The translations under genes were made by a program, and so were the position numbers. The notes beneath the pieces were generated by a model. The model did no database searches. It was not told the DNA's origin and saw nothing but the letters and a program-made list of their open reading frames with translations. DNA of 55,970 nucleotides from a virus. The stretch covers positions 1 through 55,970 of the IMG/VR virus record IMGVR_UViG_3300015241_000004. One strand, written 5' to 3'. Of the stretch, positions 28,541-50,910 are shown piece after piece; position 1 is the first letter of the stretch, and each line of letters starts with the position of its first letter.

Positions 28541-28601
28541 AACCAGATTTGATTCAGCGCGGCACTGCCGGCGCTTCGGCCGCGGAGAAGTCAGGCGGCA
28601 G
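28541..28601. repeat. Dispersed repeat, left-half copy (R1)
   Basis: Sixty-one bases starting AACCAGATTTGATTCAGCGC, nearly identical to 36450-36510 and to the left halves of 48954-49072 and 50792-50910. On the minus strand it encodes the peptide [14 protein letters not shown]-stop in one frame. Here it lies just after a gene stop (28614), so it is not translated as part of that gene. Confidence 0.85.
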
Positions 28602-28613
28602 CTCGACCCGCTT

Positions 28614-28904
28614 CTAGGCGGGGCAAAAAGCCGATCCGTCCGGCAGGACAACCGGCGCGAGATCGGGCCGCATATGATCATGCATCGCCATCATAGCGTT
28701 GGCGAACCACGTGACCATGATGTCTTCCGGGACGCTCGAATTCGGATTGCATTTCATAAAGAATGCAGCCCACGCCCGCGCGTCGGGGTTAGTATGGATC
28801 GACATATCGTAATCGTGCGCGGCAGCGGCCTCGCTCGCAGGTGATCGCAAACCAGCCACAGTTGGCTCCCTGTCCGATTGAATCATCTTCTCTTCCTCCA
28901 TCAT
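28614..28904 (-). CDS. Small conserved early protein with repeat-derived N-terminus
   Basis: 96 residues from the ATG at 28904 (TGATG overlap; ATGs at 28925 and 28901 are alternatives). Residues 8-24 (IQSDREPTVAGLRSPA) come from the dispersed repeat. The body begins SIHTNPDARAWAAFFMKCNP and continues DIMVTWFANAMMAMHDHMRP, a compact helical domain that looks conserved. It lies between a right-half and a left-half repeat, as if placed inside a split element. Confidence 0.65.
   Translation of the reverse strand: MMEEEKMIQSDREPTVAGLRSPASEAAAAHDYDMSIHTNPDARAWAAFFMKCNPNSSVPEDIMVTWFANAMMAMHDHMRPDLAPVVLPDGSAFCPA
28839..28884. repeat. Dispersed repeat, right-half copy (R2)
   Basis: CAGGTGATCGCAAACCAG followed by the CGATTGAATCA end, matching the right halves of 48954-49072 and 50792-50910. 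It codes residues of the N-terminus of the gene at 28614-28904. Confidence 0.8.
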
Positions 28905-29122
28905 CACAACGGCTCGATCTTCCATCCAGCCTCGGTCAAACTCGATAATATTGACTGCACCACGGCATCATCTGGATCCAGAATCCGGTTCGGCTTCCAC
29001 CGTGTTGTCGTCAGCACGATCGCAATCACTTCTGAAGGCGTTACCGTGGGTGAAGCCGATGGCTTGCGCAGCACCTTGGCGAGGTCATCGATGATGAAGT
29101 GGCGATCGGAGGCTAGCTTCAT
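28904..29122 (-). CDS. Small early protein, unknown
   Basis: 72 residues, ATGA-coupled upstream. Sequence MKLASDRHFIIDDLAKVLRK, then SPTVTPSEVIAIVLTTTRWK; an alpha/beta mini-protein without a known motif. Part of the translationally coupled string. Confidence 0.55.
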   Translation of the reverse strand: MKLASDRHFIIDDLAKVLRKPSASPTVTPSEVIAIVLTTTRWKPNRILDPDDAVVQSILSSLTEAGWKIEPL

Positions 29123-29331
29123 GCTTCCACCTCAACCGGCTCACACACCGGCGTCCCCTTCCCCTCGATCTTCTCCCCGTCCTTCCAGAATTCGACCCAG
29201 TGCTCCCGTCCTTCACGGCCGTCCGGATGCATCGTGACCTTGATGGTTCCGCAATTACGCGTGCATTCGCGCTCGGTTTTTTGGGCTAGGCGGTTCGGCT
29301 TGCCCCAGCGATGGCGGGTAGATTGAGTCAT
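29119..29331 (-). CDS. Small Cys/His-containing early protein
   Basis: 70 residues, ATGA-coupled at both ends. RHRWGKPNRLAQKTERECTR with CG and a later WVEFWKDGEKIE plus CEP resembles a small zinc-binding phage protein that is common in rhizobial phages as I recall; function unknown. Confidence 0.6.
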   Translation of the reverse strand: MTQSTRHRWGKPNRLAQKTERECTRNCGTIKVTMHPDGREGREHWVEFWKDGEKIEGKGTPVCEPVEVEA

Positions 29332-29477
29332 GCCCAGACGAGCCCCGGCATCGCGGCGAAGCAGTCATGCTCAACCCGTCGATCCATCTCGGGATATGCG
29401 CGCAGGAGGCGCCAGTACCAGCGCCAACCTGCGATGGGCCTATGTCCAGTTTCGAACGGCGAAAAGAATTTTGTCAT
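29328..29477 (-). CDS. Very small Trp/Arg-rich protein
   Basis: 49 residues: MTKFFSPFETGHRPIAGWRW then YWRLLRAYPEMDRRVEHDCF. The stop overlaps the next ATG by ATGA. Its own ATG would overlap the stop of the Dam-type gene by ATGA if that gene ended in the alternative frame (see the C13 tract), which supports it as real. Confidence 0.6.
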   Translation of the reverse strand: MTKFFSPFETGHRPIAGWRWYWRLLRAYPEMDRRVEHDCFAAMPGLVWA

Positions 29478-29480
29478 GCG

Positions 29481-31451
29481 TCAGCCTCCGCTAGGTTGCT
29501 GTCGTCGAGGGGGGGGGGGGGTATTGGCCGCGATCAATTCCGCCATGTTGAACAATGGTGGATTGAGTTCATCGAGGGCTTCGGCGCACCGCGGATTGAG
29601 CCAAAGCACTTCGGTTCGATCAAGCGCGCCGTCGGCGTGCGTCTCGACCACCTCGCGGCGCCAGGCGGAAAGCTTCTCTTCATAAAGTGCACTCGAATAT
29701 CCCGAGATTACGATCATCGCGCGCGCCTGCAGCACGCGGTCCAATAGTGCGACATGATCATCGTCAGATAGCTCGAAGGCATAGGCGTGGAACGCGCGTC
29801 CGCCGCGCCGCTTGGCCGAACGGGTTTCCTGCACGTAAGGCGGATCCAGATAAATCAGCGTATCGGCAGCGTCGTACCGCTCGATCACTTGCAGTGCGGG
29901 ACGGCATTCCAACAGCACGCCTTGAATGCGATCAGTGATCGCCTGCAGGGCCCCGGGCATGCCGGGCCACTCGCCCGCAGGCAGCGCGCCACCCCTGTTT
30001 ACGAGCGAGGCCCGAAACCCCGTCGATCTCTCGGAAATAGCAGATGAAGAGCCGTGCCCCATGTAGGAGCGGACGATCAGCCGCCTCGCGCGTTCTATCG
30101 GGTCTTCCGTAGTCTCGAATGCCGAATCGTATTCGTCGCGCGCAAAGGGCGTCAGCACCAGGCGCCGGCACAGCTCGGACGCCATCTCCAAGTCCCGCAA
30201 TACGGCGAAGAGATTCACCAAATTGCCATCGATGTCGTTATAGCACTCGCCGGCCGATCGCGGCTTGCGCAGCAGAACGGACGCCGCGCCGCCGAATGGC
30301 TCAACATAGACCCGATGCGGAGGGAAATGGGAAATGATCCAAGGCGCAAGCCTGAACTTGCCGCCCAGATATCGCAGGACCGGACGCTCAACCTCCCTCG
30401 GATGCGCGTAGACCTTGCCGAAGTCCAGCAGCATCTTTTGCGTTTCCGTGATCGGCTGCGGCTCCCGCCACGCCAGGTCCGTCGCCGCCCGCAATAGCTC
30501 CGACCAATCGTCCTGTGGTTCGGCCGCCATGTCTGCCGCAACCAAGCCTGCGCCAATTGGCGCATCCTCTAAAAGGGTCGAGCCCGCGCCGGATGGGGGC
30601 GCGTGAGGCGCGGGCTCTGATCGCATGGCGCGTGGGGCCGCGTCTGCGATATCGGAAGAAGGGGCGTCCGCGCCGTGGATGCCTGCACTATCAGGCGCGG
30701 ACGCGATCGACGCGGGTTGGCCTATCGCGTCGGGTTGGGATTTCTTTTTTCGTTTCGGTTTGACGGCCGGCGCCTCGCCGCCGATCGGCTCGCCGCGCCC
30801 GTCGATCTTGTCTGCGGTCGCATCGAACTTCTGCCAGTGCGCCTCGATCGCGGCATCCATCCGTTCGTGGCCGGCGCTGCCATAGGCATAGGAGAAGGTT
30901 TCGCCGCAGCTGCAGGTGCCTAAGGTGACCATGTGGCCGTTGATGACGGGGTTGGTCATCGCGAAAGTATGCCCGGCGGGGAAGATTTTGCGGGTGCGGT
31001 GGGTCTCGATCAGGGAGTGGACGATGGGATCGGTTATACCGAGAGTATCTTTTTCGGCGTCGGTAATAGGTTGATTCAAGCTGCCAGCGTGATCGCTGGT
31101 AGAATCTTCGATCACCCTGTCTTCGTCACTTGCGGCAACTTCCCTGCCCGGGTGATCGATAGGCGCTCCCACATCGGCAGTGGCCGCTTGAACCAGCCCT
31201 TCTTCCTTCAACAGCAATGCCCATTCGATGATCCGTCCGGCATAGCCTTCGGTCCATCGTGTTCCTTCGCCATCCTTGGCGCGCATGTAGCGGCGGGCGC
31301 GGCGGATCATCTTTGCGATGCCCTCGCGCAGGTACTGGTTGCGGTCTTCGTCGACATCGATCGACGGCAGCGTGATAGTGACGCCGGGCGAACGCTCGCG
31401 GTCGAAGTAGAAGGTTTCGGGCTGAGAGGTGGCGCGGGCTGTTGCGGTCAT
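29481..31451 (-). CDS. Fusion protein with C-terminal Dam-type N6-adenine methyltransferase
   Basis: 656 residues from the ATG at 31451. Part 1 (to about residue 85) is a helical module ending EWALLLKEEG. Then comes repeat-derived linker (LVQAATADVGAPIDHPG…). Part 2 (about 135-225) has VTLGTCSCGETFSYAYGSAG, a possible metal site. After a second low-complexity linker with a palindrome copy comes a D12-class methyltransferase (from about residue 320): RYLGGKFRLAPWI, VEPFGGAASVLL and the catalytic YLDPPY. It methylates adenine in DNA. An internal ATG at 30530 (MAAEPQDDW) could give a 349-residue methyltransferase alone. The frame is also open upstream to 32720. The C-terminus passes through a C13 tract. 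Confidence 0.75.
   Translation of the reverse strand: MTATARATSQPETFYFDRERSPGVTITLPSIDVDEDRNQYLREGIAKMIRRARRYMRAKDGEGTRWTEGYAGRIIEWALLLKEEGLVQAATADVGAPIDHPGREVAASDEDRVIEDSTSDHAGSLNQPITDAEKDTLGITDPIVHSLIETHRTRKIFPAGHTFAMTNPVINGHMVTLGTCSCGETFSYAYGSAGHERMDAAIEAHWQKFDATADKIDGRGEPIGGEAPAVKPKRKKKSQPDAIGQPASIASAPDSAGIHGADAPSSDIADAAPRAMRSEPAPHAPPSGAGSTLLEDAPIGAGLVAADMAAEPQDDWSELLRAATDLAWREPQPITETQKMLLDFGKVYAHPREVERPVLRYLGGKFRLAPWIISHFPPHRVYVEPFGGAASVLLRKPRSAGECYNDIDGNLVNLFAVLRDLEMASELCRRLVLTPFARDEYDSAFETTEDPIERARRLIVRSYMGHGSSSAISERSTGFRASLVNRGGALPAGEWPGMPGALQAITDRIQGVLLECRPALQVIERYDAADTLIYLDPPYVQETRSAKRRGGRAFHAYAFELSDDDHVALLDRVLQARAMIVISGYSSALYEEKLSAWRREVVETHADGALDRTEVLWLNPRCAEALDELNPPLFNMAELIAANTPPPPRRQQPSGG
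29509..29521. repeat. G13/C13 homopolymer in the methyltransferase gene
   Basis: Thirteen G in a row on the plus strand (C13 in the gene), 26 bases before its stop. With C13 the protein ends PPPPRRQQPSGG. With C12 or C15 it would end LDDSNLAEADA and its TGA would overlap the next ATG by ATGA. Such tracts slip easily; this is a candidate phase-variable tail or an assembly length error. Confidence 0.75.
30549..30564. repeat. Palindrome TGCGCCAATTGGCGCA, copy 3
   Basis: A perfect copy in the linker of the methyltransferase fusion, read A-P-I-G-A (LLEDAPIGAGLVAADM), just before the possible internal start at 30530. Confidence 0.85.
31071..31199. repeat. Divergent full-length dispersed repeat (R8)
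   Basis: It has the family ends TTGATTCA…TTGAACCAGCC and internal GTGATCG boxes, but a diverged centre. It is read through in frame by the methyltransferase fusion (LVQAATADVGAPIDHPG to HAGSLNQ) and lies between two protein modules. Confidence 0.6.
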
Positions 31452-31459
31452 GGATTGCA

Positions 31460-31663
31460 TCCCGAACCGAGCCCAGAGAGTTCGGATCGCATACGCTGCT
31501 TCCAGCGGGACAACGCCGTTGCCGAGCATGCGAAGTCGGTCCACGCGAGCAACGTCCAGCCGGGAGGCCAGCCCATCAGCCACTCGACGAAAAGCGGGTT
31601 CAAGCTCCGGCGCTCTTTCGAGGGCACCCCGCCAACCGGATAGATCGGATGGGCCGGGAGGGA
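31460..31663 (-). pseudogene. C-terminal part of the cytosine methyltransferase in a shifted frame
   Basis: In the frame +1 to the Dcm gene, this stretch encodes FPPGPSDLSGWRGALERAPE… and VDRLRMLGNGVVPLEAAYAI, which is the conserved C-terminal block (motifs IX-X) of C5 methyltransferases. It has no stop before the downstream fusion gene. Removing one T from the T4 run at 31663-31666 would join it to the N-terminal frame as TAFPPGPSD. Confidence 0.65.
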
Positions 31664-32724
31664 AAAGCGGTCGACCGCCTGGCGTCCTCAGACCGTCCTG
31701 CGAAGTCGGCGACGATCCCTTGCGGTTGGTGTTGCCGTTGACCGTCGGCGTTGACCATTGCATCGCTTGCGCCGGCAGCGGCGTCCCGCCCGCTCCAAAG
31801 CTCTGGTTCGGTCCGCCCTTCTCGCCGTCCGTCGCCCTCGGGGTGGACCAGTTCGCCGCAACCCGGCCCAGAAGGCCGTTCTCCGGCACGTTCGCCAGAT
31901 TGCCGGTATCCTTCCAGTCGCGTGAGGTCGGAGTTGGCCAGTTCGACACGGCATCGTCGAGATTGCTGCGACCGCTCTTGATCCGCGCCGCCGCCAATTC
32001 CGGCGACGGAAAACCCCTCCGATCGTCCCCAAGCTTCGCCGACGGAGTCGGCCAAGCCTTCGCCGCTATCGCGAGTGGCGTCCCCATGCCGTTGCCGTTG
32101 ATGCCCTTCGCCTTGATTTCCTGCCGGCGCGCGAAGAACGTTTCCGGCTGCTCGCCATCGTTGCTGACCGCCGCGTCCATTGTCGGCCACAGCGAGGATA
32201 AACAACCGTTCTCTCTTGTGGCTCGCGCCAACCTCTGCCGCCGTAAACAGTCCCGCCTCAACCCGGAAACCCAGTCTTTGTAGGTCACGGCGGACCCGGA
32301 GCGCTCCCGGATCGAGGCCGGGCTTCGCCGAAAGCATGCCGGGGACGTTTTCGATGAGGACGAACCAGGCTCCGGACTGCACGATGATGCGCCGCGCATC
32401 ACTCCAGAGGTCGCGCTCGTCATCGCTGCCGCGTCGTTTTCCGGCGAGGGAATGAGGCTGGCACGGGATGCCGCCAATGACGCCATCCACGAGGCCGCGC
32501 CATGGGCGGCCGTCGAAGGTTCCAACATCGCTCCAAATAGCGGCTTCAGCCAGGAGACCTTTTTGTATCGCGCAGACCAGTTGTGAGGCCGCGAATGCTT
32601 CCCTCTCCACACACACGACTGAGCGAGCATCTGGCATTGCCAGCTCGACGCCGAGATCGAGGCCGCCGCCTCCGGTGCAGAGGCTGATGAGGTTGAAGCG
32701 TCGGGGATGTAGAGCCACATTCAC
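31600..32724 (-). CDS. DNA cytosine-5 methyltransferase, frameshifted before its last motif
   Basis: 374 residues from a GTG overlapping the upstream stop (GTGA). Motif I is LCTGGGGLDLG (15-25), motif IV is GGIPCQPHSLAG with catalytic Cys88, motif VI is IENVPGM (124-130), and motif VIII is SHKRERLF (168-175). After about residue 180 the frame is Arg/Gly-rich and loses homology; motif IX-X (LGNGVVP) lies in the other frame at 31460-31663. So the protein as read lacks the C-terminal segment that closes the fold and is probably inactive unless a +1 frameshift or an assembly error is involved. It could protect phage DNA from host restriction. Confidence 0.75.
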   Translation of the reverse strand: MNVALHPRRFNLISLCTGGGGLDLGVELAMPDARSVVCVEREAFAASQLVCAIQKGLLAEAAIWSDVGTFDGRPWRGLVDGVIGGIPCQPHSLAGKRRGSDDERDLWSDARRIIVQSGAWFVLIENVPGMLSAKPGLDPGALRVRRDLQRLGFRVEAGLFTAAEVGASHKRERLFILAVADNGRGGQQRWRAAGNVLRAPAGNQGEGHQRQRHGDATRDSGEGLADSVGEAWGRSEGFSVAGIGGGADQERSQQSRRCRVELANSDLTRLEGYRQSGERAGERPSGPGCGELVHPEGDGRREGRTEPELWSGRDAAAGASDAMVNADGQRQHQPQGIVADFAGRSEDARRSTAFPSRPIRSIRLAGCPRKSAGA

Positions 32725-32969
32725 TTTTTGCCTTTCGCGCCCCGCGGAAGCGGCCTGCCTGCATGGGCCTTGATCACGGCCGCGAGGTTATCGAGATACT
32801 CATCTCCATATTCGACACGGGCGTAATCGGCAGCGATGCCGGCGACGACGCAGCAAGCTTCATCGATCGCCATGCCGCGCTGAAGCGCGAAGTGAATTGC
32901 CGAAGAGACTGCATTGGCGAGCTCGCGAGGTAGCGGCCCGGTAATGCTGATGATTTGAGGCATCTTCAT
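32721..32969 (-). CDS. Small early protein, unknown
   Basis: 82 residues, ATGA-coupled. MKMPQIISITGPLPRELANA and then CCVVAGIAADYARVEYGDEY; a helical Ala-rich protein of a type seen before DNA methyltransferases in rhizobial phages. Function unknown. Confidence 0.6.
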   Translation of the reverse strand: MKMPQIISITGPLPRELANAVSSAIHFALQRGMAIDEACCVVAGIAADYARVEYGDEYLDNLAAVIKAHAGRPLPRGAKGKK

Positions 32970-33739
32970 TCAACCACCTCCACCTCCACGCCGCCAGGGT
33001 GATCGCATTCCGTCTCCACAACGGCAGAGACAGCTTGAACCAGCACTTCCCTGCCCTGCTGCACATGCCACTCAACCGGATAGACGCAAGGCATCGTCAC
33101 CCGTTCTCTTGCTGCCCCTGCCAAGGCTTCCGCTTTCGCATAGACGTGCAATTCCCCGTCCCCGATCGTGATGTAGAACGACCCCTTCGGCATGCCGGCG
33201 GCGATCAGATCACCCGACAACAGCGAAGCCGCAACATCCAGCCGGTCGCGTTTTCCCGCTGCATCGCGCTTGTGCTTTGCCGGGCTGTCGGTTGCGGCGA
33301 GCGAGCCGAAGAACGTCAGCCAGTAGAACCCGTCATCGCAGGGGCCGATGATGCCGGGTTCGTCCAAGGTCGGATCGCAGACCACCTCGCCGTCACAGCA
33401 CACCACGCAATGGTTGGCACCGATCTTCGATAGCCCGGAAAGAATGAACACGGGCTTCGTCGCAGGGTTGCACCACATCACCGAGTTGAGAATTTGCTCA
33501 ACTTCTACATCCGCCGCGGGATAGGCGATCGCGATGCTGACGATGCCGCGCGCGTTCAGCCACGCCTCAAGTTTTGCCTGCGCGATGCTACCGCCACCCT
33601 TCTCATACGCCGAAGCGTCCATGAAGTGCGGCACGTCCTTGGCGTCCATATCGAGCACGCAGGCGATTGCGGTCCGATGGCAGTCGCCGAAGATGCCCTC
33701 GGTGGGGCGATGGCGGAAGAGCTGTTTTTGCGGCTTCAT
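32966..33739 (-). CDS. Papain-like cysteine peptidase fold protein (tentative)
   Basis: 257 residues from the ATG at 33739 (TGATG overlap). The N-terminus has RHRPTEGIFGDCHRTAIACV, with Cys in a helix start after GD, and later SKIGANHCVVCCDGEVVCDP with His then Asp. Cys-His-Asp in this order and spacing suit a papain-like or C39-type peptidase or amidase fold. Residues near the C-terminus (EVLVQAVSAVVETECDHPGG) are from the dispersed repeat. No enzyme activity can be claimed. Confidence 0.5.
   Translation of the reverse strand: MKPQKQLFRHRPTEGIFGDCHRTAIACVLDMDAKDVPHFMDASAYEKGGGSIAQAKLEAWLNARGIVSIAIAYPAADVEVEQILNSVMWCNPATKPVFILSGLSKIGANHCVVCCDGEVVCDPTLDEPGIIGPCDDGFYWLTFFGSLAATDSPAKHKRDAAGKRDRLDVAASLLSGDLIAAGMPKGSFYITIGDGELHVYAKAEALAGAARERVTMPCVYPVEWHVQQGREVLVQAVSAVVETECDHPGGVEVEVVE
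32998..33045. repeat. Dispersed repeat, right-half-like copy (R9)
   Basis: GGTGATCGC…GCTTGAACCAGC, diverged between. It encodes the last residues of the upstream protein (LVQAVSAV…), in the same frame as the R8 copy (LVQAATAD). Confidence 0.5.
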
Positions 33740-34739: not shown

Positions 34740-36097
34740 GCGGCTTGCTCCTCACTGTCGATTTCGAGCGACGGTTGCTCCGGCGCTTCGTTCCCCCACG
34801 ATATCCATCCATCCCGCGCCCGCCGCGCGTTCAACTCGACCTTGGGCAGGCTTGGGAAATAATGTTCCGCGATTTCGTACTGGAAATCCGGCTTCTCGGA
34901 ATGATCACCCTTGGGTGCCTCGATCGCTGAATCGAATTGGTCGCCCATCGCGGGGCACGGCACCTTGCCCTTGACGCCGATCAACAGCAGTTCATGCCTG
35001 TCCCGCACCCAAAAACCTGTGCCGATCGAAGGCTTGATCCAGCAGAATTGCGAGACGTAGGTAAAACCCTGTAGCTCCATCACCTTGTGAGCGATCGCCG
35101 AAAACGACGCCGGACACCACATCAGATGGATACAATCTTCCGCGGCGATGCTCATGCGCTCGCGCTGGCGTTCGACGATCGCTTCCGGCGTCGAGGCTTC
35201 CTTGGCCGTGACGTAGTGGTTGGAGGCGTGGCGATCCATCCCGGTTTCCTCCGAGCGCACCTTGAAGTGCCATTCGAAGTCCGAGAGGATCAGGCCGGCC
35301 TTGATATCCGGCAGTGCGCGGATTTTGGCGCCGAGCTTTTGCTCCCGCTCGCCGCGCTTGCGCTTTTTCTCGGCCTGGTCCTCGACGCGGACCTCCTTCG
35401 CGGCTTTACGGATTTCTTTCTTGGCTTCCGCCGTGAGTTTGCCGGCCTCATCGCGGGGGAGCGCGTCGAGAATGGCCTTCTGCTCTTCCGATGGAAGGCG
35501 CGCCAACGCAGCCCCCGTATCGAGCGACACGGGCCCGGTCCTGACCGCCTCCATCAATTCTGGCGTGGCGCCAGCTTCGATGACCGCGGCACGTTCGACG
35601 CTGCGGCGCGGCACATTCATCAGCGTCGAGGCTTCGCCCAGGGAAAGCGGCGACGATCTTTCCTCCGTCGCGTGCTGATCTTGCTCTCCGAAATCAAGCG
35701 AGGGTCCGCCAATTGGCGCAGCCTGCCGCGAATGTTGATTGGCACCAAGCCTTAGCGTTGCGATCGAGGCCGCGATCAACGCCCGTTGCTTGTCGGTGAG
35801 ATCGCGCCGCTCAAGATTTTCGGCGATGACAAATTTGAGCGCGAATTCGTCGGTCCCTGTAAAAATCGCGTAGGCAACCGGCTTTCCGAGTTCGGCGAGT
35901 TCGCGCTCGCGATTGCGGCCGTCGAGGACGAAACCCTTGTGCAGAATGATCGGGTGGTTTTGGCCTTCGGCAAGAGAGGCGCGGAAACTCTCCCGACGTT
36001 CATCCGCCAGCATCGGGAACAGATTTGCGAACGGATGATGCTTCGGGCGCGGGGAGCCCGGCATCAACAAGCCGCCCGCTGCGAGGAAGGGGTTCAT
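34736..36097 (-). CDS. ParB-domain / MT-A70 adenine methyltransferase with variant active site
   Basis: 453 residues. Residues 20-100 form a ParB/Sulfiredoxin-like N-domain (HPIILHKGFVLDGRNRERE, then NLERRDLTDKQRALIAASIA). The second half is MT-A70-like: SFSAIAHKVMELQGFTYVSQ, then WVRDRHELLLIGVKG and ARDGWISWGNEAPEQ. At the catalytic DPPW/DPEW site the sequence is DFEW (273-276), so the proline after Asp is missing. It may be a weak enzyme or a DNA-binding decoy. A palindrome copy lies in the linker (AAPIGGP). It is ATGA-coupled on both sides. Confidence 0.7.
   Translation of the reverse strand: MNPFLAAGGLLMPGSPRPKHHPFANLFPMLADERRESFRASLAEGQNHPIILHKGFVLDGRNRERELAELGKPVAYAIFTGTDEFALKFVIAENLERRDLTDKQRALIAASIATLRLGANQHSRQAAPIGGPSLDFGEQDQHATEERSSPLSLGEASTLMNVPRRSVERAAVIEAGATPELMEAVRTGPVSLDTGAALARLPSEEQKAILDALPRDEAGKLTAEAKKEIRKAAKEVRVEDQAEKKRKRGEREQKLGAKIRALPDIKAGLILSDFEWHFKVRSEETGMDRHASNHYVTAKEASTPEAIVERQRERMSIAAEDCIHLMWCPASFSAIAHKVMELQGFTYVSQFCWIKPSIGTGFWVRDRHELLLIGVKGKVPCPAMGDQFDSAIEAPKGDHSEKPDFQYEIAEHYFPSLPKVELNARRARDGWISWGNEAPEQPSLEIDSEEQAA
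35705..35720. repeat. Palindrome copy 4 (one mismatch)
   Basis: TCCGCCAATTGGCGCA within the ParB-MT-A70 gene, read A-A-P-I-G-G. One base differs from the perfect palindrome. Confidence 0.75.
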
Positions 36098-36324
36098 CGC
36101 CGCACCATCCGCGCGTTAACGAACGCCACCACAAATTTCGGCCACAGCACGATCACCATCAAAATCGCCAGCCCGAATGCCACTGGCGTCAGTTCCTGCC
36201 CGCGCGCGGCCCATCTTTTGCGCTGGTAGTCGACCAGGCCAAGGCCGTAGAGCAGCATCCAGACTGCGGCGCCGATCGAGATGTGGATCAGCGCAAGCGA
36301 GATGAGGTTATGGGCCGATGGCAT
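36094..36324 (-). CDS. Small membrane protein
   Basis: 76 residues from the ATG at 36324 (GGAGCGCCCG upstream). Two hydrophobic segments (LISLALIHISIGAAVWMLLY and FGLAILMVIVLWPKFVVAFV) and a basic loop between. Inner-membrane protein, unknown role; overlaps the ParB-MT-A70 start by ATGA. Confidence 0.6.
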   Translation of the reverse strand: MPSAHNLISLALIHISIGAAVWMLLYGLGLVDYQRKRWAARGQELTPVAFGLAILMVIVLWPKFVVAFVNARMVRR

Positions 36325-36449
36325 CGGGCGCTCCGAAAACAAGAGACAAGCGTTCTTGCGTCCGGAAGATGACCGGACGGGCAAAACGGCTTAAGAGGAT
36401 TTTACGCCAGGTGATGCAACTGGAACGCGGATACGCGTGGAAACTAAGA

Positions 36450-36510
36450 AACCAGATTTGATTCAGCGCGGCACTGCCGGCGCTTCGGCAGTGGAGAAGT
36501 CAGGCGGCAG
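36450..36510. repeat. Dispersed repeat, left-half copy (R3)
   Basis: Nearly identical to R1 over 61 bases. Here it overlaps the end of the gene at 36463-37134 and encodes its last residues, [15 protein letters not shown]. Confidence 0.85.
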
Positions 36511-37134
36511 CGATGAGGCTTCATCAGATTTCCGCGTGAGGTCGACATGATCAGTGTGCGGTGACCGAAGGGGCATCAGGGCGCCAATACCGCCATCGAA
36601 GCGGAAGAAAAGTGGTTTCATGCTTTGATCAGCCGCCAGCGTCTCGATCTCAATGCCGGGAAGCGAAAGAATCTGGCGGATATACTTGAGACTAAAAGGC
36701 GTCGGGCCGATCGATACCGACATGTTATTTTCGGGGTTAACTTCGCCCTTGCCGTCACAGGCCCCGCAGATACATCCACAACTCGGGCAATCATGTTCAT
36801 GTCCTCGCCCGTCGCATGCGGCGCATCCAACAGGCGCAGGCACCGGCGGCGGCAGAAAATATTCAGGCTTAAAGAACGATGCGCTCTCAAAGTCTTGCAA
36901 CGGTCCGGCGATGTTGAACTTTTTGTCGACATCTGAAATGTCGGACCGCAGTGTCACACGAACCAGAATATGCCCGTTGGTGGCCCAGGTGAATCCGTGC
37001 CGCGAAAACGGCTTCATCAGGTAAGGCCGGACTTCATCCGTGCTGCAGAATGGCTGCAGGTCCAGTGGCGAAGCATCTTCCGCTGCAGCCTGACCGATAG
37101 GCGCCGACGCGGCTTCAGTGGCAAGGTGAACCAT
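36463..37134 (-). CDS. DnaJ-type zinc-finger protein bounded by repeat halves
   Basis: 223 residues from the ATG at 37134, preceded by GGAGGG; an upstream in-frame ATG at 37185 lacks a good site. Residues about 100-135 hold four CxxC pairs (GCAACDGRGHEHDCPSCGC then CGACDGKG), like the DnaJ zinc finger. Both ends derive from repeats: the N-terminus resembles the right half (HLATEAASAPIGQAAAE) and the C-terminus is the left half. Perhaps a chaperone-like or nucleic-acid-binding protein. Confidence 0.65.
   Translation of the reverse strand: MVHLATEAASAPIGQAAAEDASPLDLQPFCSTDEVRPYLMKPFSRHGFTWATNGHILVRVTLRSDISDVDKKFNIAGPLQDFESASFFKPEYFLPPPVPAPVGCAACDGRGHEHDCPSCGCICGACDGKGEVNPENNMSVSIGPTPFSLKYIRQILSLPGIEIETLAADQSMKPLFFRFDGGIGALMPLRSPHTDHVDLTRKSDEASSLPPDFSTAEAPAVPR
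37093..37133. repeat. Weak right-half-like repeat (R10)
   Basis: GATAGGCGCCGACGCGGCTTCAGTGGC…GTGAACCAT resembles the right end of the family (compare GATAGGCGCTCCC…GGCAGTGG in R8). It codes the N-terminus of the zinc-finger protein. Low similarity. Confidence 0.4.
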
Positions 37135-43060: not shown

Positions 43061-43266
43061 GCCTCGATTGGATCAGAAAAAACTACAACGTGCCTGCCGC
43101 TCGCGGAGGCCGCGTCGAATACATGGGTGACGGCAAGCCCGAACTCGGCACGATCTGCGGCGCGAGCGGCAGTCATTTGAGCGTCAAGCTCGATAGCGCC
43201 AAACACAGCATGCCGTTCCATCCGACGTGGAAGCTTCGGTATCTCGACGCGGAGGCGAAGTCGTGA
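43057..43266 (+). CDS. Small beta-rich protein
   Basis: 69 residues from a GTG overlapping the previous stop (GTGA). RGGRVEYMGDGKPELGTICG then HLSVKLDSAKHSMPFHPTWK resembles a small SH3-like barrel. Function unknown. Confidence 0.55.
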   Translation: MSLDWIRKNYNVPAARGGRVEYMGDGKPELGTICGASGSHLSVKLDSAKHSMPFHPTWKLRYLDAEAKS

Positions 43267-43703
43267 CCCTTCCCCGCCCCCAACGTCTCTTCCCGCTCGC
43301 CCCGGTCGGCAGCATGCTCAAGCGCGTCCCAGCCCCCGCGCCGCGTGTGCACAAGACCTGTTGCGAGCGGGATGGCGCGTATCTCGCGATGGTGCGGCAG
43401 TGCCCGTGCCTTAGCTGCGGGATGGAGCCGTGTGAAGCGGCACACGTCCGGATGGCGAGCGCGGCGTTCGGGAAGGCCTCAGGGCTTGGCAAGAAGCCCG
43501 AGGACCGCTGGGCTTTGCCGCTGTGTTCGGGAGATCATCGACTGTTTGCGACGTCGCAGCATTCGCGCGGCGAGCATGCGTTCTGGCAGGATCTTGGGAT
43601 CAATCCGTTGATCACGTGCGAGAAGTTGTATGCGCAGCGCGGCGATTTGGTCGCGATGCGGGCGGTTGTTTTTGTGGCGATAGCGGAACGGAGCAGGATA
43701 TGA
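43263..43703 (+). CDS. HNH/DUF968-like recombination nuclease
   Basis: 146 residues from a GTG (GTGA overlap). CPCLSCGMEPCEAAHVRMAS, then GLGKKPEDRWALPLCSGDHR and a downstream Trp-rich helix. The CxxC, AHxR and PLCxxxHR elements follow the order of HNH nucleases of the Ref/DUF968/NinG group, which trim or nick DNA in phage recombination. It fits next to a Sak4-like ATPase. Confidence 0.65.
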   Translation: MTLPRPQRLFPLAPVGSMLKRVPAPAPRVHKTCCERDGAYLAMVRQCPCLSCGMEPCEAAHVRMASAAFGKASGLGKKPEDRWALPLCSGDHRLFATSQHSRGEHAFWQDLGINPLITCEKLYAQRGDLVAMRAVVFVAIAERSRI

Positions 43704-43728: not shown

Positions 43729-43950
43729 ATGAACGAACGCCCAATCTTGATGACAAAAGAGCAGATGCGCGAAGGCTTCACTCGCGGGGAAACCTTGACT
43801 CAAGAGGAATGGGCCAATCCGCAGGAAATCAAGTGGGTTGACGAACTTATTTCCGAGGGCGCGGCAACAGTCTCTGCGCCATGGGAGTACAAAGACTATT
43901 TTCAATGCGAGCGGCGTCGAGTTACTGGCGTTGCAGCTTCTAAGGCCTGA
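43729..43950 (+). CDS. Small acidic protein
   Basis: 73 residues; GGGAGCGAG lies upstream. MNERPILMTKEQMREGFTRG then WVDELISEGAATVSAPWEYK. A short regulator-sized protein; the last codons run into the dispersed repeat at 43946. Confidence 0.5.
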   Translation: MNERPILMTKEQMREGFTRGETLTQEEWANPQEIKWVDELISEGAATVSAPWEYKDYFQCERRRVTGVAASKA

Positions 43951-43996
43951 TTCAATCGGATACGGAGCAAACTGGTTCTGGTTTGCGATCACCTGA
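43946..43996. repeat. Dispersed repeat, right-half copy in opposite orientation (R4)
   Basis: GATTCAATCGGATACGGAGC…GGTTTGCGATCACCTG, the reverse complement of the right half seen at 49020-49072. It lies upstream of the DHH gene; an inverted partner lies at its end. Confidence 0.75.
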
Positions 43997-44015
43997 ACAG
44001 AGAGGAATTTGAGAT

Positions 44016-44942
44016 ATGTGGAAGCCAGACATTTGCATCTACCACGGCGGCTGTGACGATGGTTTCGGCGCAGCATGGGCGATCTGGAAGCGCTGGCCGG
44101 ATTGCCGGTTTGTGCCCGGCATCTACGGCGAAGCCATCGACGGCGAGGAGGCGCGAGACAAGAATGTTTTGTTCGTCGATTTCTCGTTTAAGCGCGAGCC
44201 GATGCGCGTACTGGCTGCGGTCGCAAAATCCGTCATTGTGATCGACCACCACAAAACCGCCGAAGCCGAGCTCGCACCTTGGGACGTTCACCTCGGGAAT
44301 GGTCAGTCGGCAACGCCGGAGTTTTTGGTTAACCACCTATACGATCCAGCCCACGCCTACGATCCGCCCATCGTTGCTTGGTTCGACATGACCCAATCCG
44401 GCGCCGTGATGGCGTGGAAGTTTGCCCGTCCCGAAAAAACCGTTCCGCTGTTCCTTGAATTAATTCAGGATCGCGACCTCTGGAAATTCGAGTTTGGCGA
44501 AGCGACGAAGCAATTCTCTGCCGCCCTCCTCACCTATGAGCAGGAATTCAACCTCTGGGATAAGCTCGCCGAACGGGAGTCGACGTCGCACTTGATCTCA
44601 GACGGCGCCGTGATCCTCCGTGCGCACAATGCCAACATCCGGAAGTTCATGGCCGATTGCTACATGGACACGATCGACGGACATTCGGTTCCCGTCGTCA
44701 ACGTCCCCTATCACTACGCCAGCGACATGGCTCACGCGCTGCTATCGCGCTTTCCCGGCGCGCCCTTCACCGCATGCTGGTTCCGGCGCCGCGATGGCAT
44801 GATCCAGTATTCGCTGCGCTCCGAGAATCATCGGCTTGACGTCTCCGAGATCGCCAAGAAATTCGGCGGCGGCGGTCATCGCAACGCGGCGGGCTACCAG
44901 GTGATCGCAAACCAAGGGCCGGTTGCTCCGATGGTCGCTTGA
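44016..44942 (+). CDS. DHH-family phosphoesterase
   Basis: 308 residues. YHGGCDDGFGAAWA (9-22), VDFSFKREP, VIVIDHHKTAEAE (the DHH signature) and the C-terminal GGGGHRNAAGYQ give the DHH-DHHA1 plan of RecJ-like and nanoRNase phosphoesterases. These cleave short oligonucleotides, cyclic dinucleotides or ssDNA with two metal ions. The last residues (VIANQGPVAPMVA) are repeat-derived. Could remove oligonucleotides or nucleotide signals made by host defence; substrate unknown. Confidence 0.8.
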   Translation: MWKPDICIYHGGCDDGFGAAWAIWKRWPDCRFVPGIYGEAIDGEEARDKNVLFVDFSFKREPMRVLAAVAKSVIVIDHHKTAEAELAPWDVHLGNGQSATPEFLVNHLYDPAHAYDPPIVAWFDMTQSGAVMAWKFARPEKTVPLFLELIQDRDLWKFEFGEATKQFSAALLTYEQEFNLWDKLAERESTSHLISDGAVILRAHNANIRKFMADCYMDTIDGHSVPVVNVPYHYASDMAHALLSRFPGAPFTACWFRRRDGMIQYSLRSENHRLDVSEIAKKFGGGGHRNAAGYQVIANQGPVAPMVA

Positions 44943-44947
44943 ACCAA
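44896..44947. repeat. Dispersed repeat, right-half-like copy (R5)
   Basis: CAGGTGATCGCAAACCAAGG…CGCTTGAACC, inverted relative to R4, covering the last codons of the DHH gene. R4 and R5 thus bracket that gene as inverted repeats with about 75-80% similarity by eye. Confidence 0.65.
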
Positions 44948-44980
44948 ATCTTCCCCTAAAACCCGAAAGCCCTCAACCCC

Positions 44981-45268
44981 ATGACGATCAGCAAATTCAC
45001 CCGCATCAACTTCGACGAGCACATCACCCTGTTGGAAGCCAGCACCCATGACGCCGCGATCGCCAGTAACGAGGCCTTCGTTCTGGCGATGGGTCGCGCC
45101 GTCAAGCGTGGCCGCGAGAAGGCGAAGTCCGGCACTTTCGTCGACCATACGCCGGCAATCGGCGCCAGGCGCATCTACGGCACGTTTCCGGTGTCCAGCT
45201 GCGGCTCGCCGGCCGCGATGTGTGCCGAGCGCGGGGCTAATCCTGCGGGAGCTGCAACCTTGCGATGA
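44981..45268 (+). CDS. Early protein, unknown
   Basis: 95 residues from an ATG at 44981. TISKFTRINFDEHITLLEAS then KRGREKAKSGTFVDHTPAIG; mixed alpha/beta, basic centre, Cys-containing C-terminus. No motif known. Confidence 0.5.
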   Translation: MTISKFTRINFDEHITLLEASTHDAAIASNEAFVLAMGRAVKRGREKAKSGTFVDHTPAIGARRIYGTFPVSSCGSPAAMCAERGANPAGAATLR

Positions 45269-45940: not shown

Positions 45941-46420
45941 ATGCCCCGCCAAGCCCTTGCCAGCGGTCAGGAACGCCCTGCCCTCCAATCGATCGGTCTG
46001 CACCCAACCGCTGACTGGCTCAACATCGAGCAAGCCGCCGCTCACCTTCGCCTATCGATCGAAGACTTCAATTACTATCGCCTGCTCAACAGGATCCCGG
46101 CGCCACTAAATGGCGAATTTTGGTCGCGTGCGAGCCTTGTCCTGCGTTCTCGCGCGCCCGACAAAGAGCGACTCTATGGCATTTACGTGATTCAGTTCAT
46201 GGAATTCATCAAGATTGGCTTTTCAAGCCACCTTTACCATCGGCTGGCGAGCTTACAGACGGGCTTGCCCCTCCGGATGAAGGTGCACAAGGTCATCGAA
46301 GGTCCGGGCCGCGCCCGCGAGCGACAGTTGCACCACCGGTTTGCCACATATCGCACACAAGGCGAATGGTATCGGCACGAAGGACGGTTGGCCCTTTGGA
46401 TAGAGGCGGGTTGCAAATGA
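45941..46420 (+). CDS. GIY-YIG-like (T5orf172) protein
   Basis: 159 residues. First about 65 residues hold a HTH-like segment (WLNIEQAAAHLRLSIEDFNY). The second part, YGIYVIQFMEFIKIGFSSHL then ERQLHHRFATYRTQGEWYR, is a GIY-YIG/T5orf172 module with the G-I-Y…I-K-I-G core and the conserved Arg/Glu/His positions. Similar in plan, with reversed domain order, to the gene at 38074-38580. Confidence 0.65.
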   Translation: MPRQALASGQERPALQSIGLHPTADWLNIEQAAAHLRLSIEDFNYYRLLNRIPAPLNGEFWSRASLVLRSRAPDKERLYGIYVIQFMEFIKIGFSSHLYHRLASLQTGLPLRMKVHKVIEGPGRARERQLHHRFATYRTQGEWYRHEGRLALWIEAGCK

Positions 46421-46800
46421 CCTTCGCGGCCATCGATCTCATCCCCGAGGAAGTCCGAGCCGCCTTTGCGGGGTCCCCTCACTTGACGATGCCGGCGCTA
46501 GCCAAGGCACTCCGGATGGACTTAAAGACGCTTACCAGGCACCGGGAGGCCCAAAATCTCCCGGTGCATATCAAGGGAACCGGCCTTGAGCGGCGGCACT
46601 ACGTCTGTACCCTTGCCGACGTGGTCGAGTTCTACCGGCGTACGGGGGTGGCATGTCAGTCTTTCGGGTCCGAGGTTCGCCCTATTTCCAATTCGATTTC
46701 CAGATCAAGGGTCATCGCTTTTACGGGACCACGTCCCTTGCGAATGAACGTAAGGCTCGTGAGTTCGAAGACGGCCGCAAAGCCGAAGCCCGGCGCCTAG
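46417..46800 (+). CDS. Probable excisionase / HTH protein
   Basis: 127 residues, ATGA-coupled. LTMPALAKALRMDLKTLTRH then ERRHYVCTLADVVEFYRR is a winged HTH of the MerR/excisionase type. It overlaps the integrase gene by 148 bases; the last about 45 residues use that overlap and are less natural, so the ancestral protein probably ended near YRRTG. Likely directs integrase towards excision. Confidence 0.6.
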   Translation: MTFAAIDLIPEEVRAAFAGSPHLTMPALAKALRMDLKTLTRHREAQNLPVHIKGTGLERRHYVCTLADVVEFYRRTGVACQSFGSEVRPISNSISRSRVIAFTGPRPLRMNVRLVSSKTAAKPKPGA

Positions 46801-47810
46801 TCAAGGAATCCCTTGAGGCCGGCCGGCGGCCGATGACGGTCGGCGCGGCGTGCGATCGATGGTGGGATCAGGTCGGCCAGCACGGCAGCGACCCGGATCT
46901 GGAGCGGGCATTGGACTGGCTGAAAACCCAGATCGGCCCTGAGGTTGCGCTGCACGACATCAACGACGATATGGTCTCCGCGGCCGTCGAGGCCCGCAGG
47001 AAAGGCGTCATGCGCGCCGGCCGGGACGCCAAGGGCACCCAGCTTTATCGACCGATCGGCAACCGCACGGTCAACAAGACCGTTCCATCACTCTTGCGCC
47101 GCGTCATGAACAAGGCGCGCAAGGCATGGTCGGTCACGATCCTGAAGGAACCGGACTGGAAAGAGCACTTTCTCCCCGAACGCAAGCAGCCGGTTCGCGA
47201 GATTACCCCTGCGGAAGATGCCATACTCGACGCCGTCGAGAGCCGCGAATTCGCCGGGCTTCGGGAATTTGCCGAGATCATGGGCCTGCGGCGAAAGGAA
47301 ATGCTTCTGACGTGGCCGCAGGTGGATTTTGATCAGCGTATCATCCGGATCGTCGGCAAAGGCGGCGTGCCGGCCATTCTGCCGCTGACCATGCGGGCCT
47401 ATGAAATCCTTTGGCGCCTGCGCGGCCACGACAAGCTTTGGGTGTTTACCTTCGTTGCCCAGCGCACCAGGCGCTGCCCGAAGACCGACCGCAAGTTCAT
47501 CAAGGGCCAACGCTACCCGATGACCTATTATGGCATCGGCACCAACCGGCGCCGCAAATGGGCCAAGGCGGGCGTGGATGCGCGCTTGCACGATACGCGT
47601 CACACGACAGGCCAGCGCACCCTGCGCGCCACGGGTAACCTGAAGCTCGTGCAGACGCTATTGCGGCACACCGAGATCAGAACGACCGCGATGTTCTATA
47701 CCGATACCACTTTCGCCGATCTGCGCGCTGGCATGGAAAGCGTGGAATCCCAGAAAAAATCCCAGAGCGGAACTCTGCCGGATGCCAAGCCATTGAAGGA
47801 CAAAGCGTAA
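46653..47810 (+). CDS. int: Tyrosine integrase
   Basis: 385 residues. N-terminal arm-binding domain (SVFRVRGSPYFQFDFQIKGH), core-binding domain (60-180) and catalytic domain with Arg213 (GLRRKE), Lys236 (GKGG), His313-x-x-Arg316 (HDTRH), His339 (LRHTEIR) and nucleophile Tyr349 (MFYTDT). Its stop lies 18 bases before the tRNA-like att core, with direct repeats on both sides. Integrates the circular phage genome at a host tRNA gene. Confidence 0.92.
   Translation: MSVFRVRGSPYFQFDFQIKGHRFYGTTSLANERKAREFEDGRKAEARRLVKESLEAGRRPMTVGAACDRWWDQVGQHGSDPDLERALDWLKTQIGPEVALHDINDDMVSAAVEARRKGVMRAGRDAKGTQLYRPIGNRTVNKTVPSLLRRVMNKARKAWSVTILKEPDWKEHFLPERKQPVREITPAEDAILDAVESREFAGLREFAEIMGLRRKEMLLTWPQVDFDQRIIRIVGKGGVPAILPLTMRAYEILWRLRGHDKLWVFTFVAQRTRRCPKTDRKFIKGQRYPMTYYGIGTNRRRKWAKAGVDARLHDTRHTTGQRTLRATGNLKLVQTLLRHTEIRTTAMFYTDTTFADLRAGMESVESQKKSQSGTLPDAKPLKDKA
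47748..47766. repeat. 19-bp repeat flanking attP, left copy
   Basis: TCCCAGAAAAAATCCCAGA in the integrase 3' end; 18 of 19 bases match 48002-48020. Candidate integrase arm-binding or IHF-linked site. Confidence 0.6.
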
Positions 47811-48490: not shown

Positions 48491-48541
48491 GGTGGTTCTT
48501 CCTCTTGCGGGATTGCCGGCATCCGGCCGGCGCGGTTTCTC

Positions 48542-48871
48542 TCAAAACGGGATATCGCTCATCACGCCCCGGAACGCCGGAACTACCGGGGTTGCGCGGA
48601 TGCCGTATTGCTTGGCACGGTTCTCTTTGGCCGTGAGCCAGGCGAGCTGGGCCCGGCCTCGATCGTTGACGCGGCGGTTGTCGAGGCTGGCGCCGTTGTC
48701 GTGATCGACGAAGTGTTTGTCGGAGGGTCGCGGTAGCCCCATCCGTTCGGTGATGATGACCCGATGCATCAGGACCGTGACGTTCTGGTCGCCTTGGCGG
48801 ATTGATCGTCGGGCATAGACCAGGCCGCCATGCATTGGATGGGACACGGCATAGGTCCACTTCCACTGCAT
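48542..48871 (-). CDS. HNH-like endonuclease, possibly 5'-truncated
   Basis: 109 residues from the ATG at 48871. LMHRVIITERMGLPRPSDKH, VDHDNGASLDNRRVND, then QLAWLTAKENRAKQYG: the pattern of small HNH homing-type nucleases. The frame stays open upstream with natural sequence (RTIIIGARTQYVVKVSPEDY) up to the edge of a dispersed repeat at 48954, but no ATG is there. The start may have been lost when the repeat was placed, or a rare start codon is used. Confidence 0.65.
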   Translation of the reverse strand: MQWKWTYAVSHPMHGGLVYARRSIRQGDQNVTVLMHRVIITERMGLPRPSDKHFVDHDNGASLDNRRVNDRGRAQLAWLTAKENRAKQYGIRATPVVPAFRGVMSDIPF

Positions 48872-48953
48872 CAGGAAGTCGTAGTCTTCCGGGGAGACTT
48901 TGACGACGTATTGGGTGCGGGCGCCGATGATGATGGTGCGGTGAGGAAGAATA

Positions 48954-49072
48954 TGATTCAGCGCGGCACCTTCGATGCTTCGGCAGCGGAGAAGTCAGGC
49001 ATCAGCGAATGCGCTGCGCAGGTGATCGCAAACCAGAAGCAGCTTGCTCCGTGTCCGATTGAATCAAGCCTT
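48954..49072. repeat. Dispersed repeat, full-length copy (R6)
   Basis: About 119 bp, TGATTCAGCGCGGCACC … GATTGAATCAAGCCTT, close to 90% like the copy at 50792 by eye. The ends TGATTCA…TGAATCA form short inverted repeats. It fills the interval between the HNH gene and the membrane-protein gene. Confidence 0.9.
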
Positions 49073-49081
49073 CTTCCGACC

Positions 49082-49597
49082 TCACACCCCACCCGGCTGC
49101 ACGTAGCAATAAACGTAAAGCCCCCGGCTCAAGAACAGCACGCCATGCCCGGTCGGATTCCCCCGGTCCCATTTCAACTTGTGGTCCGGGATCTCGATCT
49201 CGGTGCCGTTTTCGACATGCGGTCGATGCAGCGGCGCATCGTCGCGCGGATCCGTGATGGTGACGTAGGTTTTGCCGTCCCGGATATGGATCTCGTCCGC
49301 CCAATAGGCGTCCGCTTCACCGCAGCAAGAGACGCTGGGATTGTCCGGCTGCATCAGGCCCTGATACCAATCACGCACGGCCGGATCCGATTTGCCCCAT
49401 TGTCCTTCGTCATGGGCGTGCGCCAGCCCGATCGCAGCGAGCCCGACAACAAGCACGAGCATCAGCATGATGAAGAACCGCCCGACCAGGCCCATGTTTG
49501 GCCGGAAGCGATCGACCAACGTTTCGACGACAAATGCGACGGCGCCGAGCGCGAGTGTCACGAGCAGCGTGAGAGCCAGTTTGCGAGGTTCCATCAT
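49082..49597 (-). CDS. Membrane protein with periplasmic Cys domain
   Basis: 171 residues from 49597 (an ATG at 49594 is also possible). Two spans (LALTLLVTLALGAVAFVVET and GRFFIMLMLVLVVGLAAIGL), then a soluble domain: HDEGQWGKSDPAVRDWYQGL, then SVSCCGEADAYWADEIHIRD. The Cys pair and Trp-rich strands suggest a periplasmic fold. Found in the lysis block; role unknown. Confidence 0.65.
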   Translation of the reverse strand: MMEPRKLALTLLVTLALGAVAFVVETLVDRFRPNMGLVGRFFIMLMLVLVVGLAAIGLAHAHDEGQWGKSDPAVRDWYQGLMQPDNPSVSCCGEADAYWADEIHIRDGKTYVTITDPRDDAPLHRPHVENGTEIEIPDHKLKWDRGNPTGHGVLFLSRGLYVYCYVQPGGV

Positions 49598-49956
49598 CAG
49601 TGCTTCGGCGGCCAGAGGATGACCATCAGCTCGTGCGCGATGTAACCAAGCCCGGCCGCGAAGGCGAGGACACCACCCCACAGCAGTTTGGCAAGCGAGC
49701 GGGCACCCGCCTGCCGCTGTCGTTCCGCCTCGAAACGCTTGATCGCCGGCTCGACCTCCGCAAGCTTTTTGGTCTGTAGCGCAACGGTTGAAGCGAGCGC
49801 CTCCTGTTGCGATTTCAGGCCATCCATTTTCTCATGGAGCCGCCTTCGGCCTTCCGTGGCTTCGCGGTCCTGCCGCTGCCAGGTCTCGGTCAAATTGGTG
49901 ACCGAGGCCTCGAGCGAGCCGATCGAGCGGCTCACCTCATGCATGCTGTCGGGCAT
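49597..49956 (-). CDS. Coiled-coil protein with C-terminal span (holin/spanin-like)
   Basis: 119 residues from the ATG at 49956. A coiled coil (VSRSIGSLEASVTNLTETWQ through ALASTVALQTKKLAEVEPAI) is followed by a C-terminal span (LLWGGVLAFAAGLGYIAHEL). This resembles DUF1515-type proteins of rhizobia and small holin-like proteins. It overlaps the next membrane gene (TGATG). Confidence 0.6.
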   Translation of the reverse strand: MPDSMHEVSRSIGSLEASVTNLTETWQRQDREATEGRRRLHEKMDGLKSQQEALASTVALQTKKLAEVEPAIKRFEAERQRQAGARSLAKLLWGGVLAFAAGLGYIAHELMVILWPPKH

Positions 49957-49972
49957 CGGCGGGGCCAGCCGG

Positions 49973-50743
49973 CTACAGTATCGGCATCGCGAGCCCAAGC
50001 CCCGGCGCCAAGGCATCGAGCCCGACCTTGACGCCGACCAGCCCCATCAGCTTGGCGAAGATCGCAGCCTCATCGCCCAACAATGGCGCGCAGCCGAGCT
50101 TAAGATAGACCGGCAGCCCCGCCTTGATCTGGGCTACGAAGTCACGCTTCTTCTGGAACAGCTGCACCAGGATGAACTGGCCGGTTGGAGCGGACGCCGT
50201 CGGCAGCGATAGCAGAAATTTGACCGCGGCCGGGTAGCAGGCATGGCTGATCGGATCGCTGAAGCTGGTCGGGTCGCTGGCATTCGTCAGCGTTGCCGCG
50301 TCGGCGTCCGCCGCGTTGAAGTCGGCAACGATGCCGTCGACCACTTCCTTTTTGATCGCGGCGAGATCGCCCATGAACTTCGTCAGCGGATCCGTGCGGG
50401 GTACCGCCGACGCGGTAGCGATGAGCGGCTTCAGCCGGATCTCCGCGGAAGCGTCGCCCGGAAAGGCGAACATGCCGCCGAGCAGGATCGCGAGGATGAC
50501 GGCCGGCTTGATGGCGCTCGCCGGCACACTGACCAGCGGTCCCACCTTGCTCGAGGAGATGCCGATCAGCGCCGTCAGGATCACGCCATTGGCTTGTGCA
50601 ATCATCCCGACCACCCACTGCACGGAGGGTGCGTACTGCTGAATGATCGTTGGAGCATGATCGATGCCGTAGCCGGCAATGAAGACAAGAAGGTTGGTCC
50701 AGATACCGAACCAGAAGGTGAATTTCGGATCAATCTGCGGCAT
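49973..50743 (-). CDS. Multi-span membrane protein, possible holin
   Basis: 256 residues; AGGAACC precedes the ATG. Hydrophobic segments at about 10-30 (FWFGIWTNLLVFIAGYGIDH), 45-65 (VVGMIAQANGVILTALIGIS) and 78-98 (AVILAILLGGMFAFPGDASA), then a 150-residue soluble part with two Cys. Neither classical holin length nor a pure holin layout. It may hold a holin-like membrane part with a periplasmic domain. Confidence 0.5.
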   Translation of the reverse strand: MPQIDPKFTFWFGIWTNLLVFIAGYGIDHAPTIIQQYAPSVQWVVGMIAQANGVILTALIGISSSKVGPLVSVPASAIKPAVILAILLGGMFAFPGDASAEIRLKPLIATASAVPRTDPLTKFMGDLAAIKKEVVDGIVADFNAADADAATLTNASDPTSFSDPISHACYPAAVKFLLSLPTASAPTGQFILVQLFQKKRDFVAQIKAGLPVYLKLGCAPLLGDEAAIFAKLMGLVGVKVGLDALAPGLGLAMPIL

Positions 50744-50791
50744 GTTTTAGGTTCCTTTTTCTAGGTGATCGATTTGAGGTGAGGGAAAGGT

Positions 50792-50910
50792 TTGATTCAG
50801 CGCGGCACTGCCGGCGCTTCAGCAGTGGAGAAGTCAGGCATCAGCGAACGCCCTGCCCAGGTGATCGCAAACCAGAAGCAGTTTGTTCCGTGTCGGATTG
50901 AACCAGCCTT
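50792..50910. repeat. Dispersed repeat, full-length copy (R7)
   Basis: About 119 bp, TTGATTCAGCGCGG…GATTGAACCAGCCTT. On the minus strand it reads LVQSDTEQTASGLRSPGQ…stop overlapping a 14-codon frame [14 protein letters not shown]-stop. It fills the interval between two late genes. Confidence 0.9.

Follow-up and report, generated by a model that had tools for sequence, protein, structure and literature searches.

How do accessory genes enter and leave phage genomes while the operons around them stay intact? The question is a long-standing one, and the boundaries of such exchanges are usually too diverged to recognise. It arises in concrete form in IMG/VR virus record IMGVR_UViG_3300015241_000004, a complete phage-like record of 55,970 bases that is called the window here. 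A family of repeats lies dispersed at its gene boundaries, and with these repeats the boundaries become explicit, paired and countable. The repeats are boundary modules of about 55 bp, present in the window as six convergent pairs and one single end, and the original prediction had read them as either a phage mini-element or seams for recombination. It is our preferred reading, and a probable one, that they are seams at which cassettes of a single gene are exchanged by recombination; that the two boundaries are inverted relative to each other suggests a possible descent of these cassettes from an inverted-repeat mini-element.

Seams have good support and are preferred mainly because comparison of the same loci in different phages reveals interiors replaced between homologous boundaries. 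The locus of unit A (Table 1), flanked by a conserved small gene and by a gene for a GapR-like, phage-encoded DNA-binding protein (PF10073, E 8e-36), has five states in five phages, an empty one included. In the window, a start module encoding MIQSDREPTVAGLRSP... runs into the remainder of a 90-residue protein of unassigned family; the corresponding genes begin with MDHRATEPATAVIGHP... followed by DUF4326 (E 4e-20) in G002, with MDHRATEPASAVIGYP... followed by a NADAR domain (E 2e-28) in G003, and with MVHRTTESASAPIGHP... followed by a different protein of unassigned family in G038. The fifth phage, G043, carries an empty R-L unit (R and L being the right-type and left-type modules) that immediately precedes the GapR gene and itself follows another small gene. 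Without their N-termini the window and G002 proteins, the only two interiors compared in this way, have no similarity; the G002 and G003 proteins belong to different Pfam families, and the whole window protein has no convincing similarity to those of G002, G003 and G038. The end module is 87% identical between the window and G043 and likewise between the window and G038, and the window and G043 are 80% identical across a 396-bp stretch spanning the end module and the GapR gene. The end sequence of G002 differs at this locus, and in G003 the left neighbour and the start module were the only parts located.

The pattern recurs elsewhere. Homologous start modules upstream of gene P (36094-36384) lead into different genes in the window and in G003, and G038 has an empty unit there; a module-started gene at 12.5 kb in G002 may belong to this locus. 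Downstream of gene Z, where the module starts 15 nt (window) or 14 nt (G031) past the stop codon, the window has an empty R-L unit and G031 a gene-bearing unit of 0.79 kb; the module is 79% identical between the two, and the preceding 200 coding bases 64%. Downstream of gene X (43227-43703) the window, G031 and G038 have one end each, in differing surroundings. The cargo seen so far includes DUF4326, NADAR, a DHH phosphoesterase and an SspD-like protein of the PAPS-reductase type; a PADLOC scan of the cargo gave one SspD-like match (E 1e-15) and otherwise weak matches.

The modules form one homologous family. All the copies that had been listed at the outset are present and are matched by BLAST and nhmmer in the window, with empty reversed controls; the copy at 50.8 kb finds the others at E 1e-36 to 2e-5. 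The copy at 31071, described earlier as diverged, belongs to a subtype shared with the copy at 32998 (E 4e-5 to each other; nhmmer E 1e-9 to 6e-12) and is in fact a complete short inverted pair. The L half is dispersed in its own right, with conserved CTGACTTCTCC and CGCGCTGAATCA blocks, and when reversed it aligns over its full length with the R half (TTTGATTCA...), so the two halves are one family of inward-facing ends, and the homology assumed for the copies is borne out. The left and right halves reported earlier are thus real sequences, yet they are mostly the two ends of one unit rather than stand-alone pieces: those at 28541 and 28839 enclose the gene of about 90 codons, those at 43946 and 44896 enclose the DHH phosphoesterase gene, and the supposedly lone half at 36450 had an overlooked partner at 37079-37134, recovered by the merged profile. 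The half at 32998 is the only listed end that does lack a partner.

Searching with a right-half profile turned up eight copies in a single IMG/VR contig, and pattern scans and iterated profiles then widened the family to G031-G033, G035, G038, G039, G042 and G043. The merged module profile covers 59 ends in nine phage records, together with four diverged ends in G002 and G003, and the reversed-sequence control gave zero matches; the expectation that relatives would carry the repeat at other positions is thereby upheld. An early search with TerL relatives, among which BLAST gave no convincing module match, had pointed to absence of the repeat from the closest relatives, a view dropped when the merged profile found a diverged variant there. 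G002 and G003 also share another conserved end sequence, TAACCTGACAGG..GGTCATTGTCC, after genes behind a MDHRATEPASAVIGHP-type module, and a similar sequence precedes the G003 orthologue of gene 44981-45268; it is probably a second end subtype. No module match was found among INPHARED phages or PLSDB plasmids, nor in two relatives in culture, Bradyrhizobium phage ppBdUSDA122-1 and Sinorhizobium phage phi2LM21, and a scan of bacterial genome contigs with one fixed-spacing pattern, which misses the longer-spacer type, returned only a weak, probably chance Verrucomicrobial match.

What, then, is conserved in a module? The consensus is TTTGATTCA...GATCACC, with a start codon inside it. Two blocks scarcely vary, an outer one (TTTGATTCA) and an inner one that contains TCA (GATCACC or AAGTCAGG); the middle varies, and a 1-base change in its length alters the frame of the inner block. 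At gene starts the module often follows a purine-rich stretch; it has ATG, GTG or TTG and then about 17 conserved codons into the gene, giving a family-like N-terminus (M-I/V-Q/H-x-x-T-x-x-A-S-A...); the partner module stands inverted at the gene's 3' end. The N-terminus IQSD...GLRSP had correctly been ascribed to the repeat in the 28.6-kb gene, whereas a 15-residue C-terminus ascribed to it holds for the 36.5-kb gene and fails for the 28.6-kb gene, whose stop codon comes before that stretch. Variation at third codon positions is in mild excess in the start modules, a small sample (0.48 against 0.38 and 0.39 at the other positions), and not in the non-start copies (0.40 against 0.38 and 0.41). 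Because the frame of the inner block shifts and the non-start copies have no third-position excess, we read the conservation as acting mainly at the nucleotide level, as would suit a site in the DNA that doubles as coding sequence at gene starts. A peptide function as the sole cause was rejected as the main explanation, as the 1-nt spacer difference shifts the frame and the second block is still conserved.

Such a site could in principle serve expression. Under this explanation the modules would be regulatory or RNA-processing sites selected at gene starts and ends, and the variation in genes would be ordinary phage mosaicism; the purine-rich stretch with a start codon at the module start, the closer identity of module than of adjacent gene at gene Z and the fold scores of the short units given below would all suit it. 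However, modules lie both sense and antisense to genes, RNAalifold found no structure shared within the R or the L half (pair counts are at shuffle level), Rfam had no match in window 26000-52000, and a scan of 48800-51100, covering sigma-70 promoters only, found no promoter-like site at units C and D. Terminator-like matches near these two units fall outside both. We consider this explanation improbable.

Neighbouring modules nearly always face each other. Of the 22 cases of neighbouring ends less than 1.1 kb apart, 18 are convergent and 3 divergent, while in the remaining one both ends point the same way, and randomised orientation gave a mean of 5.5 convergent pairs and a maximum of 14 in 20,000 trials; when R and L had been profiled separately, the count was 20 convergent out of 28. 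Gene-bearing units hold one gene each and span about 0.26-1.0 kb, and in G042 (3416-4238) two R-gene-L units adjoin in tandem. Gene-free R-R' units measure 124, 126, 127 and 127 bp from tip to tip in four phages, and gene-free R-L units 113 bp (units C and D of the window) or 116 bp (G043). These short units occur at unrelated gene junctions, including one between two G039 genes. The R-R' ones fold as long imperfect hairpins better than shuffled sequences (z -2.5 to -4.7), the fold of C and D being weaker (z -0.6 to -2.1).

An architecture of this kind invites the thought of a non-autonomous inverted-repeat element, like a miniature inverted-repeat transposable element (MITE) or a REPIN formed from repetitive extragenic palindromic (REP) sequences, whose ends, the modules, would be moved in trans; the empty units would then be the bare element and the genes its passengers. 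The strict convergent pairing agrees with this, with terminal inverted repeats at the six paired units of the window and also in further carriers, and so do the hairpin folds and the presence of units of 124-127 or 113 bp in unrelated junctions. The extra copies within a genome can also be alike (C and D are 86% identical, the L ends of A and B 95%), and a 12-bp direct repeat, TGATCGATTTGA, flanks unit D (p below 1/300). Against it, 15 of 16 pairs tested lack a target-site duplication, with only unit D beyond chance and its repeat not directly at the tips; no recognisable transposase occurs among the unit proteins examined; the phage and plasmid collections hold no match; and ends lie at orthologous positions beside neighbours about 60% identical, which suggests old, fixed sites. 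The units resemble MITEs and REP/REPIN sequences in being short, inverted-repeat units, some of them gene-free, that have no enzyme of their own, and differ in lacking a consistent target-site duplication, in carrying accessory cargo and in occupying fixed orthologous phage loci. Transposition is an unlikely, if credible, account of the present units; as for the mini-element first proposed, a clearly delimited unit with inverted ends does exist, and its empty forms vary little in length, but its movement by transposition stays conjectural.

The single-gene units and the G042 tandem also recall integron cassettes, in which case the modules would be attC sites without an integrase. Integron gene cassettes and clusters of attC sites lacking integron integrases (CALINs) do exist in phages (PMC9892861), and the resemblance lies in exchangeable single-gene cassettes in phages. 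The RYYYAAC...GTTRRRY core pair of attC, however, occurs in 0 of 66 module matches, which largely refutes the idea, and each unit has two inverted modules in place of the one 3' site of a cassette; this origin is very improbable indeed.

For recombination seams, a mechanism can be built on the observed homology, pairing and orientation of the modules, the interior replacement at orthologous loci, the empty units and the in-module start codons. A unit would be a start module of about 55 bp at the 5' end of a gene with its related, inverted module at the 3' end. Homologous or annealing recombination between modules common to co-infecting phages or prophages would swap or delete the interior while both boundaries remain, leaving the gene-free units of 113-127 bp as the empty state. 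Accessory genes could in this way be traded at fixed loci with the neighbouring genes undamaged, and an incoming gene would bring a working translation start, presumably used from within the module. The content between two modules offers a direct route to accessory genes and a handle on whether the module's length suffices for exchange.

Several points weigh against this interpretation. The neighbours are 47-86% identical in the compared genomes, and because no recombinant was caught among close relatives, exchange is deduced from deep comparisons; all module-carrying records are metagenomic assemblies; partnerless modules occur, namely H in the window and several in G035 and G042; and no phage recombinase specific to the module carriers was found. 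Moreover, a seam alone requires neither inverted boundaries nor empty units of near-fixed length, and these two features, left unexplained by it, suggest descent from a mini-element or a dedicated enzyme. The latter would make the whole a dedicated gene-capture system, in which a specific recombination enzyme, with the inward-facing modules as its sites, would bring in, take out or swap one gene at a time, perhaps genes of counter-defence. Such a phage would have reserved loci, leave a standard empty unit and tag captured proteins with a common N-terminus. We hold this to be rather unlikely.

Table 1. Boundary modules, units and adjoining genes of the window
Feature	Position	Strand	Remarks
Six module pairs	28.5, 31.1, 36.5-37.1, 43.9-45.0, 48.9-49.1, 50.8-50.9 kb		convergent
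GapR-like gene, conserved right neighbour of unit A locus	28216..28536	-	PF10073; orthologues in G002, G038, G043
Unit A end module, L type, inward-facing	28545..28603	+	
Unit A cargo gene, 90 aa from ATG 28886	28617..28886	-	no Pfam match; interior differs in relatives
Unit A start module, R type	28838..28890	-	ATG and N-terminus MIQSDREPTVAGLRSP
Conserved left neighbour of unit A locus	28904..29122	-	orthologues in G002, G003, G038, G043
Empty unit G, two inward R-type ends	31066..31204	.	124 bp tip to tip
Single R-type end H, partner not detected	32987..33050	-	immediately upstream of gene 32721-32969
Unit B end module, L type	36454..36512	+	
Unit B cargo, 223 aa from ATG 37134	36463..37134	-	no Pfam match; C-terminus [15 protein letters not shown]
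Unit B start module (MVHLATEAASAPIGQ)	37079..37134	-	
Unit E-F left end, R type	43942..44005	+	upstream of DHH gene
Unit E-F cargo, DHH-family phosphoesterase	44016..44942	+	phrog_4771, E 6.6e-87
Unit E-F right end, R type, inverted	44894..44954	-	encodes C-terminus of DHH protein
Empty unit C, end L and start R	48947..49076	.	113 bp tip to tip; 15 nt after gene Z (49082-49681)
Left copy of 12-bp direct repeat TGATCGATTTGA	50766..50777	.	second copy 50914-50925
Empty unit D	50786..50910	.	113 bp tip to tip; 86% identical to C

Two short observations concern units or ends themselves. The window has a 1079-aa open frame (29481-32720) that joins a methyltransferase stretch of phrog_56 type to a region reading through unit G in frame, and this frame shares its strand and part of its span with the methyltransferase frame 31600-32724. 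In G031, at about 23400-23800 (L168 about 6400-6800), an in-frame tandem repeat encoding a GSGYGSGDGSGDG-like sequence lies between two end modules.

How do the units compare with known ways of shuffling phage genes? Small variable genes for the internal proteins of T-even phages share a common N-terminal coding segment and are exchanged as cassettes, the common N-terminus being a capsid-targeting signal cleaved during head maturation. The modules differ in that their non-start copies are conserved too, without codon-position bias, so that conservation looks to be mainly at the nucleotide level. The promoter early stem-loop (PeSL) elements, in the accounts of Arbiol et al. from 2010 and Comeau et al. 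from 2014, are reportedly composites of a promoter and a stem-loop between genes. They are small, dispersed, gene-boundary elements of T4-type phages, thought to shuffle small genes among related phages (PMC4503421). The GapR-adjacent locus in its five phages resembles them in that a single locus, framed by conserved elements, holds different genes; the present modules, unlike PeSL elements, form inverted pairs round one gene, contain the start codon and N-terminal codons, and have no promoter or terminator signature at C and D, the two units scanned. In function, PeSL shuffling and the T-even cassettes are the nearest precedents.

To our knowledge, none of the systems compared here combines paired inverted boundaries that carry the start codon with a standard empty unit. 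Cluster K mycobacteriophages have start-associated and extended start-associated sequences, repeats 13 bp and 17 bp long that lie upstream of translation starts, tied to particular gene families, the extended form with inverted repeats (PMC3203893). What they have in common with the modules is the link to translation starts, both being genome-wide phage repeats there. The module of about 55 bp, however, enters the coding region, has a partner at the 3' end and precedes unlike genes at one locus, and no 13-bp GGGATAGGAGCCC-type repeat was found before the start codons, the module having its own consensus.

As for the phages that carry the modules, they form a group of temperate, uncultured phages of soil type, which probably infect Rhizobiales. 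The window has an exact 77-bp direct terminal repeat (1-77 and 55894-55970), and its genome is therefore complete or circularly assembled. It encodes TerL (21606-23144), a portal protein (16577-18562), a tyrosine integrase (46653-47810), several DNA methyltransferases and a replication initiator (25182-26468); since the last is 51% identical to its counterpart in Bradyrhizobium phage ppBdUSDA122-1, a Rhizobiales host is likely for the window phage, judging from sequence.

The window has five copies of CGCCAATTGGCG, a perfect palindrome that mostly reads TGCGCCAATTGGCGCA (8292, 16591, 30551, 35707 and 45719; expected 0.01), and all window occurrences of CCAATTGG fall within these five. Among relatives, G038 has two copies and G039 one, with none in G002, G003 and G031; it could be a regulator or partition-type site. 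Finally, the proteins encoded at 38074-38634 and 45941-46420 both match phrog_8130 and phrog_4284, PHROG families of unassigned function, and one of the two has a weak homing-endonuclease match.

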